Both the position numbers and the translations under genes were made by a program. A DNA stretch of 64,000 nucleotides, from assembly GCF_000383975.1 (NCBI RefSeq), contig NZ_KB913017.1, forward strand, positions 2,221,527-2,285,526, written 5' to 3'. The notes under the pieces were generated by a model. The model had not been told where the DNA came from. It saw nothing but the letters and a program-made list of their open reading frames with translations, and made no database searches. Shown here one piece after another: positions 50,781-56,204 of this stretch (within the stretch, counting starts at the first letter, position 1; every line of letters begins with the position of its first letter). The stretch is from Natronorubrum tibetense GA33 (lineage in GTDB: Archaea; Halobacteriota; Halobacteria; Halobacteriales; Natrialbaceae).

Positions 50781-52031
50781 ATGAGTAGCGCGGCGCGGCC
50801 GCTTTCGGAACCACAGGTGCTGGCCCACACCAAGCGGCGGCTCTTTCCGGCCGAGGGGGAGGAGGACGGACCGTCCTACGTGGTTGCCGACACCCAGTTC
50901 TCGAAAGACGAGTGGCTCCCCGGCCAACCCGTTACGCCGGCTGTTCGGGAGTGCCTCGCGCCGTTCAACCACGTCCGGATCGGCGGCGGCTATCCGGATC
51001 TCGTGGGGGTGCGCAGCCTCGAGTCGGACCTCCTCGCCGTCGAACGGGTGGGCGACGAGCCGCCGCTGATCGCCATCGAGGCGAAGGGGGAGACGAGCGA
51101 CGGCGTGAATACCCAGCTCGGGATCGTCCAGGCCTACGACCGGCTCCACGAGGCCAACGCGGCGTACCTCGCCGCGCCTGCGGCTGCCATCACGGAGACC
51201 GATCGGACGCTCGCGCGGGAGCTGAACGTCGGCGTGCTGGGCGTCGATGCGACGGGGAGCGTGGACGCCCTCGAGGTCCCGCGGGTCGTCGGCAATCGGA
51301 CCTCGAGCGAGGCGACGGCGCTACGGTTTCAGGCCGGCGCACAGGGCGTCGCGGACAAATCGTTCGGGCTGAATCACCCGAAGAACTACCTCGGCTATCC
51401 GCTGGCACAGTACGCGGAGGGCGACACCGACGCGTTGCTCTCGGAGTACAAGGTCGTCAGCGCCGTCGAGAGCGCCAGACAGGGAGCCGCGTTTCTGGGA
51501 CTGATCGAGGACGGCCCGCGCGGAATCCAACTCACGTCGCTGGGCCAGGAGGTCGTCCGATTCGCGAACGCCCGCTGTGGCTCCGTCGAGGGCGCACTCG
51601 AGGAGTTCGAGGACTGGTACCGATCGCGAACACGGTTCGTCGATCTCGCACCCGAGTGGGGCCAGCTGGCCCGTCGAGTGGTGTTCGAGTACCCCGCGAC
51701 GGAGCTACTCGTCACCGAGTTGCAGGCCATGCACGACGACTGGCAGCCGGAGCCGTCGCTCGTGGATCTCGTCGAGCACCTGCACACGGTTCATCCGACC
51801 TTTACCGTGGAGCTGTTCGTTCGCGGTGACGACGACGTTCGACGGCGTGTGTTGACCGAAGATGGGGCGCTGCGACGCGAGGCGCTCACGGACGGACACG
51901 TCTACCACTCGCCCACCGTGTTTCAGCTGAAGGCGATGCTCTACCACGCCGGGATTCTGACCGAGCGCGGACGGGAGCCGAATCGACTCGAGCCGCTCGA
52001 GGATGTCTGGGCGCTTCGAGAGCCGGTCTGA
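50781..52031 (+). CDS. PD-(D/E)XK nuclease-like protein of unknown function
   Basis: A 416-residue protein. The N-terminal third has a restriction-endonuclease-fold signature: GGYPDLVGV (Asp73) and then LIAIEAKGETSD with Glu100 and Lys102, spaced as in PD-(D/E)XK enzymes. The remaining part contains helical segments with RQGAAFLGLIEDGPRGIQLTSLG that resemble a winged-helix domain. A role in DNA cleavage, repair or defence is plausible. I do not recognise the family. The gene is isolated on the + strand between the FAD enzyme and a CPBP gene. No methyltransferase adjoins it. Confidence 0.8.
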   Translation: MSSAARPLSEPQVLAHTKRRLFPAEGEEDGPSYVVADTQFSKDEWLPGQPVTPAVRECLAPFNHVRIGGGYPDLVGVRSLESDLLAVERVGDEPPLIAIEAKGETSDGVNTQLGIVQAYDRLHEANAAYLAAPAAAITETDRTLARELNVGVLGVDATGSVDALEVPRVVGNRTSSEATALRFQAGAQGVADKSFGLNHPKNYLGYPLAQYAEGDTDALLSEYKVVSAVESARQGAAFLGLIEDGPRGIQLTSLGQEVVRFANARCGSVEGALEEFEDWYRSRTRFVDLAPEWGQLARRVVFEYPATELLVTELQAMHDDWQPEPSLVDLVEHLHTVHPTFTVELFVRGDDDVRRRVLTEDGALRREALTDGHVYHSPTVFQLKAMLYHAGILTERGREPNRLEPLEDVWALREPV

Positions 52032-52095: not shown

Positions 52096-52191
52096 ATGAG
52101 CTACGGTCTGGATCCCACGGAGGAGTACGGCGGATCGACCACGGTTCGGCTCCTCGAGAACGGATCCACACGGAAGACCTCAGCTAGATGA
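52096..52191 (+). CDS. Tiny ORF, possibly the truncated 5' end of a gene
   Basis: A 31-codon frame (ATG at 52096, TGA at 52191) reading MSYGLDPTEEYGGSTTVRLLENG and more, with an acidic, protein-like start. It ends 12 bp inside the 3' end of the convergent CPBP gene. It could be the 5' remnant of a gene lost by deletion, or a spurious frame. I do not recognise the family. Confidence 0.3.
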   Translation: MSYGLDPTEEYGGSTTVRLLENGSTRKTSAR

Positions 52192-53091
52192 CTGTGCGAT
52201 CGAACGTCGAGTTAGCGTCTTCGGTCCATAGACGACTACCACCACGATTGCGACGAGGAGCGCTAGCGCTGCTGGAAGGAGTTCTCCGATGGCCCCGTGG
52301 GGAACGAGTTCGCCGCTGAAGTTTCCCGAGAAGTGAAACAGTACCGCCCCGAGGATACTGCGTCCCGTGTTGTTGTAGATCCAGGTGTAGAGGATCGAGA
52401 TGATCACTGCTCCAACCATGAATTCCAGGAACGGGAGCGATAGCACGCCGAGTCCGGCCTGGTAGGTTCCCTGCATGAAAAACAGGGGCACGTGCCAGAC
52501 AGCCCAGACGAATCCGAGAATCAGGCTCGCGCCCAACGCGTTCCAGCGTGCTTGCAGCCCATCAAGTGCGTATCCGCGCCAGCCCAGTTCTTCTGGTAGC
52601 GGGCCGAAAAACACCATGAAAACCACGTACGGGATGATTGATACCGGATCGACGGCAAACTCGGCCGCTCGCTCGAACGCTGGTACCGTGTCGCCAGCGA
52701 GAACGCCCAACAGCAGCGCGAGGCCGTTCAGGACCGGAACTAACAGGAAGATCACGGCGTACCAGCGCAGTCCGATCCGCCGGACGTCGACGAGCCGTCG
52801 CCAATAGTCTCTCCGATGCTTCTTCTCGGCAGCCCGAAAGAGCAAGCAGATGGCTGCACCCGGAACGCCGAGCCCGCCGGCGGCGAACAGGAGCACGCCG
52901 GGCATCGCGAACGGTTCGTACTCGAGGACGATCAGCGGTATCCAGAAGAGGTACGAGACGCCGAACGCGATGGCGAAGAACTGCCACGGGTTCGAGTACT
53001 CGAGGAACTCGGAGTCGATCTCCTCGGGTGCTGCGATGGATGCAGCCGCTGTCTCCGGTGTCGTTTCGTTACTGGCGGTGTCGTCGGTCAC
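52180..53091 (-). CDS. CPBP-family intramembrane metalloprotease
   Basis: A 303-residue protein with about eight hydrophobic helices. The CPBP (CAAX protease and bacteriocin-processing) active site is visible as EELGWRGYAL (EExxxR) near residue 165, FVWAVWHVPLFF (FxxxH) near 192, and the third helix NTGRSILGAVLFHFSGN with its His. The start is GTG at 53091, overlapping the stop of the serine hydrolase gene by 4 bp (GTGA). Bacterial relatives act in bacteriocin immunity or protein processing. The coupling suggests a joint role with the hydrolase. Confidence 0.93.
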   Translation of the reverse strand: MTDDTASNETTPETAAASIAAPEEIDSEFLEYSNPWQFFAIAFGVSYLFWIPLIVLEYEPFAMPGVLLFAAGGLGVPGAAICLLFRAAEKKHRRDYWRRLVDVRRIGLRWYAVIFLLVPVLNGLALLLGVLAGDTVPAFERAAEFAVDPVSIIPYVVFMVFFGPLPEELGWRGYALDGLQARWNALGASLILGFVWAVWHVPLFFMQGTYQAGLGVLSLPFLEFMVGAVIISILYTWIYNNTGRSILGAVLFHFSGNFSGELVPHGAIGELLPAALALLVAIVVVVVYGPKTLTRRSIAQSSS

Positions 53092-54587
53092 GTCGTGTCA
53101 CCCTCGTCCGTTCGAGGAGCGAGGACCGTCAGCAATAATAACACGGCGACCGCCGACAGCGCCAGTCCAATCCACTCGGCGATCACCGGCAGAAAGAACG
53201 CGACGGTCTCCCGTCCGAGGGTCCACCAGAGTCCGAGCGTCGCGACTGCGAGCCCGCCGAGGACTGCACGAGCGGTGCGGTTGCGTTCGGACAGCGGAGC
53301 GAACGTTCGCGTCCCCGTGACGGCACCGTACCCGAGTCGGAGGGCAAGCCCGGCCGCGACGCCGACGAGAATCCAGACCGGCAGGCGGATCCATCGCCTC
53401 GCGGTCGTCAGTGAGACTGCAGGGAGGTCGCTCCGATCGGCCCACGCCTCGACGACGTCGGCGATGAGCTGTAAACTCCGCTCGCTGTTCGTCAGAACCA
53501 CAATCCCGTCACCGGTTTGCGGGACAGCGTGAAACCAGTTCCACGAACCGGCTCCCTGGCCGCCGTTCATCACTGCTTGTTCCCCGTTGGAGAGCGTTTC
53601 GACGAACAAACCGAGTCCCACGCCGTCGGTGGCCAGATCGTAGAAGCCCGTCGGTTCCACCGTCGAGGTGTACACTTCCCCGACGCGCTCGGGGGCGAGT
53701 ACGCCCCGCCCAACCGGTGCCCCGCTCGTCTCTGTACCGGCGGCGACGAAGCGGGCGACATCTTCGGCGGTTGCGTACAGTTCGCCGTGGGCGCCAGCCG
53801 GCCCGTGTGACGCCGGGACCGGCGTTCCGTCCACGAAGTGTTCCGTCGCCAGCTCCGAACGGAGCTGTTCGGTCGCGGCGAAGGTAGCCCCGTCCATCCC
53901 CAGCGGATCCAGAACCGTCTCGTCCACGTACGCCCCGAAGTCACGGCCCGTAACGTCCTCGATCAGGAGTTCCAGCAGCGCGTAGCCGGGATTCGAGTAC
54001 CGGAACTCACCGGGTTCACCCGTCGGCCGAGCGGCCGGGCCGTCCGCGTTCCCGGAAAGCGCTTCCCGGAGCGGCGGCGGCTCTTCGTCCAGCGGGACGC
54101 TTTCGTATCCGCCCGCCGGTAACCCGGCACTGTGGCTGAGCACTCGCCGAACGGTCACCGCATCCCACGAATACTCCGCGCTCGGTAGCTCCCAACTCGT
54201 GATGTGATGGCCGACCGGATCGTCGAGTTCGATCTTGTCTTCTTCAACGAGCTTCAACACCCCCCATGCAGTGATCGACTTCGTGATCGATTGTACCTGA
54301 AACGGGATATCTACGGTCATCTGGCGTTTCTCCGCGGGATCAGCGCTGCCGTAGGCACCGCTCCAGGTCACCTCGCCGTCCTCGATTAGGGCGATCGACG
54401 CTCCCGGAACGTCGTATCGACCGAGCAGGTCCGGAACGCGCCCGTCGAGGTGTTCCGGGAGCGATTCGTCGGATGCGCCAGCGGTTGTGGCGGAGCCAAA
54501 TTGGCCGAGGAGGCCCCCGCCAACGAGAGATGCTGCGAGTAACCGACGGCGAGTAGCAGTGACCTCCTCCGCGCGATCCGACTCCAT
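53088..54587 (-). CDS. Tat-exported serine hydrolase (beta-lactamase/PBP fold) with membrane tail
   Basis: A 499-residue protein. A Tat signal is present (RRRLLAASLVGGGLLGQFG near residues 13-31). The catalytic SxxK motif is QSITKS (Ser100, Lys103), the tyrosine motif is FRYSNPGYA (YSN), and the C-terminal box HGG-like segment is NGGQGAGSW. The last 110 residues carry about three hydrophobic helices, so the enzyme should face the outside while anchored in the membrane. Relatives include class C beta-lactamases and D-peptidases; haloarchaea lack peptidoglycan, so the substrate is unknown. The next gene on the strand overlaps by 4 bp. Confidence 0.92.
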   Translation of the reverse strand: MESDRAEEVTATRRRLLAASLVGGGLLGQFGSATTAGASDESLPEHLDGRVPDLLGRYDVPGASIALIEDGEVTWSGAYGSADPAEKRQMTVDIPFQVQSITKSITAWGVLKLVEEDKIELDDPVGHHITSWELPSAEYSWDAVTVRRVLSHSAGLPAGGYESVPLDEEPPPLREALSGNADGPAARPTGEPGEFRYSNPGYALLELLIEDVTGRDFGAYVDETVLDPLGMDGATFAATEQLRSELATEHFVDGTPVPASHGPAGAHGELYATAEDVARFVAAGTETSGAPVGRGVLAPERVGEVYTSTVEPTGFYDLATDGVGLGLFVETLSNGEQAVMNGGQGAGSWNWFHAVPQTGDGIVVLTNSERSLQLIADVVEAWADRSDLPAVSLTTARRWIRLPVWILVGVAAGLALRLGYGAVTGTRTFAPLSERNRTARAVLGGLAVATLGLWWTLGRETVAFFLPVIAEWIGLALSAVAVLLLLTVLAPRTDEGDTT

Positions 54588-54725: not shown

Positions 54726-56204
54726 TCACCGCTCGGCTGCCGGCTCGAATCCATGCAGCCCCCGATGCGCGGCGAGGAATGTTGCATGCGGACGCCGTTC
54801 GTCCGTCGTTGGAAGCGTGAGTTCCTCGCCCTCGAGTCGCGAAAACTCCTCGTACCCCTCGAGATCCGGTCGGTCCGCTACGAGAATCCGATAGTCGTCC
54901 GACACGGCGAGCCAGCCGGCGTCGAACGCCCAGTGGTGCAGTCGACAGAGTGCGAGCCCGTTCTGAACGATATCGCGACCGTCGTCCCGTTTCGGATAGA
55001 TGTGTGCCGCTTCGATGTCCACGGTTCCGGCGGGGGACTCTCGAGACGTCCCACAGATCGCACAACGGGCGTTGTAGGCTGATTTGACTCGGCTCGCGAA
55101 CGCACCCGAACGAACCCGTCGTTGGGTCTCGGTGAACTCGGTTTCGTCGTCGGTCAGCGCCGGCTCCGACTCTTCGCCGTCCGCTGTCTCTATACTCGCG
55201 GCACCGCCGTCGGTGACCGACGCCGCAATCGTCTCGAACTCCGCCGGATGGTCGAGTTCCAGCCGCTCCATCGTGAACTGATAGACCATTCGATTGTGGT
55301 CGTCGTCGAACACGTAACGGGCGTCGACGACAGCGACCAGTCCCTCGTACCGAAGCTCGCTGCTATCCGCCGGCTGGTAGAAGAAATACACCGGGACGGT
55401 CGATCCCTCGGCCTGCTCGAGCAGCGCCGTGTTCGCCCCGGTCGGCGACTGATCGCCCTTCGAGGGGACGCCCTCGCCGATGTAGGTGAATCGGTCGCCC
55501 TCGAGGTCGTCGCCGTATGGGCCGTCCTCCCGAGCCTTGACGATGACGTACGACAGGGCTCCGTCGTCGTCCGTTCGCGGACTGATCCCCTTGATGTACG
55601 AGCCGAAGCTGGTGCCGAACGCCGCTTCGAGCTCCTGTTGCGTGTAGGATTTACCGCGCTCGAGAGCAGGACCGTCGGACGCGAGTCGCCGAGCCAGATC
55701 TCGGCCACTGTCCGTCAGCGAGTTCGTCCCGTCCGACCGCTCGACGTAGCCGAGACTCTGCAGCCAGCCCCGGTGCTGGGCGGGCCCCGAGGGGTCGCTC
55801 CAGCCGGTTTCGGGATGCTCGTCCGCGATAGCCGCGCCCAGTTCAGCGTCCGTTTTTGGCTCGTCGAGCAACGCCTCAAGCGCCGTTTCGAAGCCGCGGA
55901 CGTTCTCGGCGAGCGCGTCGAACAGCAGCTTCGGCTCGGTGTCAGCCATCCATTCGATTCCGCGTTCGGTCAACGCCACTCGATCCTCGTCGACTGTGAG
56001 TAGCCCGATCGCCTCGAGAAAGCGGAGTCGATCGCGGATTCCGTCGTCGCTCGTCGCTCGCGTATTCGATTTCACCCACTCGAAGAGCGCGGCCTCGTCC
56101 GGGTTATCGGTGAGAACGTACGTGAAACACCGCTCGAGGACGTTCGCATAGTTCCCCGCGCCGCCGAAGAATCGAACTGCGATAGTACGTTTGTCCGTTC
56201 CCAT
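54726..56204 (-). CDS. Winged-helix/SRA-like/HNH endonuclease, type IV restriction-like
   Basis: A 492-residue protein. Residues 30-180 form two winged-helix-like segments (RDRLRFLEAIGLLTVDEDRVALTERG). About 184-325 is a module with YIGEGVPSKGDQSPTGANTALLE then VPVYFFYQ, which resembles the SRA-like domain of ScoMcrA-type type IV enzymes that read modified DNA. The C-terminal HNH nuclease is at about 365-445: CAICG, DIEAAHIYPKR (His401), QNGLALC (Asn415), LHHWAFD. It probably cleaves DNA with modified bases or sugar/phosphate marks; the target is unknown. There is no methyltransferase partner. Confidence 0.85.
   Translation of the reverse strand: MGTDKRTIAVRFFGGAGNYANVLERCFTYVLTDNPDEAALFEWVKSNTRATSDDGIRDRLRFLEAIGLLTVDEDRVALTERGIEWMADTEPKLLFDALAENVRGFETALEALLDEPKTDAELGAAIADEHPETGWSDPSGPAQHRGWLQSLGYVERSDGTNSLTDSGRDLARRLASDGPALERGKSYTQQELEAAFGTSFGSYIKGISPRTDDDGALSYVIVKAREDGPYGDDLEGDRFTYIGEGVPSKGDQSPTGANTALLEQAEGSTVPVYFFYQPADSSELRYEGLVAVVDARYVFDDDHNRMVYQFTMERLELDHPAEFETIAASVTDGGAASIETADGEESEPALTDDETEFTETQRRVRSGAFASRVKSAYNARCAICGTSRESPAGTVDIEAAHIYPKRDDGRDIVQNGLALCRLHHWAFDAGWLAVSDDYRILVADRPDLEGYEEFSRLEGEELTLPTTDERRPHATFLAAHRGLHGFEPAAER

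Follow-up and report, generated by a model that had tools for sequence, protein, structure and literature searches.

A probable type IV nuclease of Natronorubrum tibetense GA33 with a predicted tandem winged-helix module ahead of its SRA and HNH domains

The window, that is, the whole stretch of 64,000 nucleotides of Natronorubrum tibetense GA33 DNA that was analysed, carries an open reading frame whose product is predicted to consist of a tandem winged-helix module, an SRA domain, a linker and an HNH endonuclease domain (Table 1). The gene occupies a conserved stretch between the gene of a 416-aa protein and a 103-aa gene, beyond which lie genes that were named by eye as 6-phosphogluconate dehydrogenase-like, dCTP deaminase-like and aconitase-like. 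In the window the nuclease gene and the 416-aa gene are separated by CAAX-protease-like (by eye) and beta-lactamase-fold genes (52180-54587, minus strand); no such genes were found there in orthologue loci, L031 for example. The original prediction had described a gene lacking a methyltransferase partner and, as far as a regular-expression scan can tell, this held: no methyltransferase motif was seen in real-looking genes from 44 to 64 kb of the window or in the scanned orthologue loci, where most of the module-HNH loci measured just 4 kb.

Table 1. Features of the nuclease gene, of its predicted protein domains and of the recurrent neighbour (positions in the window).
Feature	Position	Strand	Basis
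Whole gene, 492 aa, ATG start	54726..56204	minus	ORF
N-terminal tandem winged-helix module, residues 4-180	55665..56195	minus	AlphaFold2, Foldseek, hhalign
Winged helix 1, about residues 36-92	55929..56099	minus	secondary structure of N-terminal model
Winged helix 2, about residues 100-176	55677..55907	minus	N-terminal model, hhalign
SRA (PUA-superfamily) domain, residues 177-319	55248..55676	minus	structure matches; orthologue SAD_SRA
Putative flipped-base pocket, Y230, D232/D233, Y241	55482..55517	minus	alignment to TagI; family columns
Linker between SRA and HNH, residues 327-366	55107..55226	minus	low confidence, pLDDT < 50
HNH endonuclease domain, residues 359-488	54741..55130	minus	HNH_2, HHPV4I-equivalent residues
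416-aa PD-(D/E)XK-like protein, recurrent neighbour	50781..52031	plus	alignment, genome searches

The product is almost certainly NtiG33I (WP_006089674.1), which is given as a 492-aa protein of N. tibetense GA33 in Table 1 of PMC11037411, because genome and length agree and a genome search returned one match, revealing a single copy. The individual protein has thus almost certainly been named and assayed in print (PMC11037411), which the original prediction had overlooked. The motifs YIGEG (241-245), GDQ (250-252) and GANTALLE, together with H401 and N415, are all present in it. Full-length orthologues of 70-85% identity were detected in six other genomes, so that the full-length gene occurs sporadically, in 7 of the 61 genomes searched (G000, the own genome, and G001, G003, G005, G016, G032 and G036). 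The 496-aa orthologue of Haloterrigena turkmenica DSM 5511 (locus L005, genome G036; 73% identity) is HtuIII and that of Haloterrigena salina JCM 13891 (L058), also of 496 aa, is Hsa13891I, while NspC1119I (480 aa) is presumably orthologous too, judging from its genus and length. In PHROGs, residues 186-442 matched phrog_15103 (E 5e-40). Among viral contigs no relative was found by whole-protein search or by search with the N-terminal alignment; the search with the full alignment (A1) returned five loci, one of which was judged by its length to be HHPV4-like. The HNH_2 and TagI matches described below and the full-length orthologues place the observation beyond chance. At the same site, genome G009 retains a 41-residue remnant of 93% identity, and in Natrinema gari (L061, 9965-11429) the orthologue is split into two overlapping frames by a frameshift or an assembly error; such gain, loss and decay is in keeping with a restriction gene.

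The AlphaFold2 model of the whole protein, built from 14 sequences, was of moderate to weak quality (pLDDT 71.8, pTM 0.44), while the N-terminal half modelled alone reached a pLDDT of 89 and a pTM of 0.85. The original prediction had called the winged-helix N-terminus different from that of ScoMcrA, and the N-terminal model indeed revealed a tandem module, in which the two winged helices resemble one another (hhalign 97%) and the second carries a conserved recognition helix of QHRGWLQ type (residues 143-149). Among the Foldseek matches listed, the BpuJI recognition domain was the best (E 3.4e-5), with FokI at 6.8e-4, and structure alignments over 162-169 residues gave Z scores of 10.1 for FokI and 10.2 for Nt.BspD6I. 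Winged helix 2 aligned to RosR/MarR with a Z of about 11, a score equalled by many MarR-type proteins; the VIA-align and Foldseek lists leave room for other families as well. Since a profile of the module matched none of the PDB sequences, the likeness to BpuJI and FokI is one of fold and does not imply homology. Pfam gave weak winged-helix matches for the window protein. A superposition by eye of R145/Q149 on R231/Q235 of DpnI was dropped, as the hhalign profile comparison lent it no support.

Structure prediction also bore out the SRA-like reader that had been proposed for the middle of the protein. Residues 177-319 aligned to SUVH5 (4ygi) with a Z of 12.9 (rmsd 3.0, 134 aligned residues), and the region matched MspJI (Z 12.5) and UHRF1 (Z about 10.6). 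TagI gave a Z of 12.8 across residues 178-490, with an rmsd of 14.5 that is due to the alignment spanning two domains. SAD_SRA was not among the Pfam matches listed for the window protein, and the orthologue L058 passed the cut-off of that family at residues 184-316 (31.2 vs 30.7 bits). TagI was also the only PDB sequence match of weight (E 2.3e-9, and 6.3e-13 with a profile). In this alignment Y230, D233 and Y241 correspond to TagI Tyr55, Asp58 and Tyr67, whose roles in the pocket are described in PMC6212794, so both pocket tyrosines are kept. The pocket carboxylate may be D233, as suggested by alignment, or D232, as suggested by spacing and invariance: an acid (D or E) occupies position 233 in at least 23 of the 28 module-SRA-HNH ORFs, with S there in both SRA-DpnI_C-HNH proteins, and D232 is retained in all aligned rows among the twelve patterns listed, HHPV4I of Haloarcula hispanica pleomorphic virus 4 (HhiV4I) included; two module-SRA-HNH rows lie beyond these patterns. 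Position 233 was accordingly rejected as proof of cytosine reading, and with D232 kept throughout these rows the pocket does not settle the mark. Free-standing SRA-like ORFs of 153 aa were noted at L021 and L038, and the virus HHPV3 encodes an SRA without a nuclease.

The C-terminal HNH domain with His401 and Asn415, as read earlier from the sequence, was recovered as a Pfam HNH_2 match above cut-off (E 2.7e-12), and it aligned to the VcaM4I structure with a Z of 9.0. NCBIfam and PADLOC matches were confined to this part of the protein. H401, N415 and H424 are equivalent to H296, N310 and H319 of HHPV4I, alanine mutants of which are reported to have lost cleavage (PMC10101028). C381, C384, C420 and H423 likely form a zinc site.

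The N-terminal module is present in 80 of the 243 haloarchaeal genomes of the order, where its partners are HNH, SRA-HNH or McrB-like ATPases; with three kinds of effector it would represent a recurrent haloarchaeal route of type IV targeting, of possible use for mapping modified DNA. The nonredundant ORFs of the fetched loci, which are non-random and give no census, comprised module-HNH (37), module-SRA-HNH (28), module-SRA in long proteins (8), SRA-HNH (11), SRA alone (6) and SRA-DpnI_C-HNH (2). As module and SRA each occur alone with HNH, both look self-sufficient and each may be a reader, and the window protein would combine two stand-alone readers. Both of the long module-SRA proteins scanned (L148, 378-5177, minus strand, 1600 aa; L040, 5073-8723, plus strand, 1217 aa) contain a tandem winged helix, an SRA and an AAA_5 ATPase, with long middle regions devoid of domain assignment. 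An ORF of 1150 aa at L149 (1563-5012, minus strand) joins DpnI_C, the tandem winged-helix module and a McrB-like AAA_5, and is a candidate multi-reader type IV protein; as it holds both DpnI_C and the module, the two are distinct.

PMC11037411 classes NtiG33I as a Gm6ATC-dependent enzyme of "PUA-wH-HNH" type. This label implies, for NtiG33I, HtuIII, Hsa13891I and NspC1119I (480-496 aa), that a DpnI-type winged helix separates PUA from HNH, whereas in the NtiG33I/HtuIII set analysed here a different, tandem winged-helix module is placed before the SRA. DpnI_C (PF17726) found no match in the window protein, HtuIII or Hsa13891I and did match HHPV4I; in genome searches it was negative in G000 and G036, with three of five records positive and serving as control. 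Comparison of winged helices 1 and 2 with DpnI_C by hhalign gave 4% and 0.7%, respectively. In the BLASTP alignment (71 gap positions in all) the SRA-HNH interval of HHPV4I exceeds that of the window protein by as much as DpnI_C is long, and the linker at residues 327-366 sits where HHPV4I has its DpnI-type winged helix. With the domain absent by PF17726 and hhalign, 6mA reading through a DpnI-type winged helix was rejected. We conclude that the layout of the 480-496-aa proteins is tandem winged helix - SRA - HNH, separate from that of HHPV4I, and, as far as we can tell, "PUA-wH-HNH" describes them loosely and mislabels their architecture. If this layout is right, the published family lumps two architectures. 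Table 1 of PMC11037411 gives NtiG33I as well expressed (+++) and negative for toxicity, in Dam+ E. coli, and for in vitro activity; the negative result was obtained with Dam+ pBR322, and no assay of NtiG33I on other marks was found reported there. On the same condition, this result may reflect an assay of the wrong mark or sequence context and not an inherently inactive protein, and the same cause may lie behind the weak results of HtuIII, Hsa13891I and HsaZ19I; misfolding of a haloarchaeal protein at low salt may also account for the inactivity.

The SRA fold, the HNH active site and the solitary gene support the candidate type IV assignment made at the outset, and we consider that the protein is probably a solitary nuclease that depends on DNA modification and reads DNA through two modules. 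The tandem winged-helix module would dock on duplex DNA to provide the sequence context, with a possible role of its own in sensing a methyl mark; the SRA would flip the modified base into the Y230/D232-D233/Y241 pocket; and the HNH, carried on a flexible linker and acting as a dimer, would cut or nick at a short distance from it, probably using Mn2+. The restriction of Dam+ E. coli by orthologues and the sporadic, decaying gene also speak for this reading; the reported inactivity of NtiG33I, the C5-methyltransferase matches in 5 of the 7 full-length carriers, the dispensable SRA of HHPV4I and the weak full-length model weigh against it. As to the mark, 6mA is the leading candidate and is held tentatively, a modified cytosine comes next as a possible one, and any other mark, phosphorothioate included, is rather unlikely, phosphorothioate having the least support. 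Orthologue experiments favour 6mA, and the SRA pocket would suit a modified cytosine. The host genome contains neither a PF00145 (C5-methyltransferase) nor a PF02086 match, so neither C5 nor Dam-type self-marking is evident.

The published reading differs from a two-reader nuclease in that a winged helix would sense fully methylated GATC, with the SRA idle and the HNH cutting nearby. It draws on experiments with isogenic strains (PMC11037411): in Dam+ E. coli, restriction is reported as strong for NspC1119I and mild for HtuIII, Hsa13891I and HsaZ19I, so that toxicity depends on Dam in four orthologues, and HtuIII nicks weakly upstream of Gm6ATC with Mn2+ or Co2+. PF02086 was found in just 2 of the 7 full-length carriers, against 22 of 54 other genomes. 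However, the proven type of sensor, DpnI_C, is missing from the proteins and genomes named above, neither winged helix resembles it in profile, and NtiG33I itself is reported as inactive, so that this reading is unlikely, if a serious one.

A modified-cytosine reader of TagI type, in which specificity would come from the SRA by itself and the tandem winged helices would add affinity or context, is doubtful to the same degree. The SRA fold with its two pocket tyrosines, the acid at position 233 where both SRA-DpnI_C-HNH proteins have S, and the host without a C5-methyltransferase match speak for it; against it stand the PF00145 matches in 5 of the 7 carriers (18 of the 54 other genomes), which make broad 5mC cleavage unlikely, the Dam-dependent effects of the orthologues (PMC11037411), and D232, which is shared with HHPV4I, for which PMC10101028 reports binding to none of the modified cytosines tested. 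A bolder proposal, less probable than either of these, is that the tandem winged helix is a new, non-DpnI reader of 6mA in duplex DNA that has been dealt to HNH, SRA-HNH and McrB-like ATPases; paired here with an SRA, it would tie cleavage to two marks, or to a single one in a set sequence context, and the 416-aa PD-(D/E)XK-like neighbour might be a second nuclease of the locus.

An ordinary sequence-specific enzyme resembling type IIS, with BpuJI/FokI-like recognition joined to HNH and a protecting methyltransferase elsewhere, would suit the fold of the N-terminal module and the one strong N6/N4 methyltransferase of the host (C1:3814216), but the family of the latter occurs in 59 of 61 genomes with or without the enzyme, none was seen nearby, and the SRA domain would be left without explanation; we regard it as very unlikely. 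The suggestion that phosphorothioates are recognised fared worst and is the most improbable reading, since NF045808 (PT-dependent enzyme), although the nearest HNH subtype, was matched by the HNH part alone, far under its cut-off (90.3 vs 180 bits) and with no match for the sulphur-binding half, on which ground membership of the phosphorothioate-dependent SBD-HNH group was rejected, and the structural overlap with ScoMcrA SBD-SRA (Z 11.6, rmsd 9.8) is rough and not decisive. The count of dndC (0 of 7 full-length carriers vs 4 of 54 other genomes) was uninformative.

The 416-aa neighbour was also investigated. G70, P72, D73, E100 and K102 are present in 13 of 13 sequences of its family alignment, recognised by eye as a PD-(D/E)XK signature; searches yielded no Pfam match above cut-off (one weak DnaT match) and no PDB or PADLOC match. 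The gene accompanies the orthologue, at varying distance, in all 15 loci compared, and its family is present in 35 of 37 genomes of the taxonomic family f1, where it is core, and in 145 of the 243 genomes of the order. Outside f1, at least 9 of 43 module hits, from five families, have a match within 8 kb, a lower bound counted by hand with hits of E above 1e-10 and all of f1 left out; the chance of such a match was estimated at about 0.5% each. The C-terminal domain of the family is fused to HNH at L203 (1589-2800, minus strand; G243) and to DpnI_C at L204 (3893-4627, plus strand; G235), and these fusions point to a modular family of restriction type. The 416-aa protein is therefore probably another restriction-type protein and possibly a partner of the window gene; as the majority of f1 genomes encode it but not the enzyme, partnership is not established.

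Comparison with known systems places the two-reader nuclease among several partial relatives. The predicted fold of residues 4-180 resembles those of the BpuJI and FokI recognition domains, without sequence similarity, and the two-HTH modules of BrxA and SspB are described as resembling those of FokI and BpuJI (PMC12839542); in the literature found, none of these module types is reported joined to SRA-HNH, and no description of the tandem winged helix - SRA - HNH layout was found in open-access literature. The original prediction had compared the protein with ScoMcrA (SBD-SRA-HNH), and this stood in that an extra DNA-binding half precedes SRA and HNH in both, but ScoMcrA carries a sulphur-binding domain in place of the tandem winged helices and the nearest relatives proved to be TagI and HHPV4I; the earlier reading was otherwise largely right, with partial support. 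TagI, which cleaves 5mC and 5hmC DNA (PMC6212794), shares the order SRA then HNH and the pocket tyrosines, but is devoid of the N-terminal winged-helix module. HHPV4I, of 38% identity over residues 170-486, has homologous SRA and HNH domains and the three catalytic residues in common with the window protein, whereas its order is SRA, DpnI_C (170-221, 60 bits), HNH without the tandem module, with S in place of D233, and its activity at Gm6ATC is reported to need the DpnI_C winged helix and to dispense with the SRA (PMC10101028).
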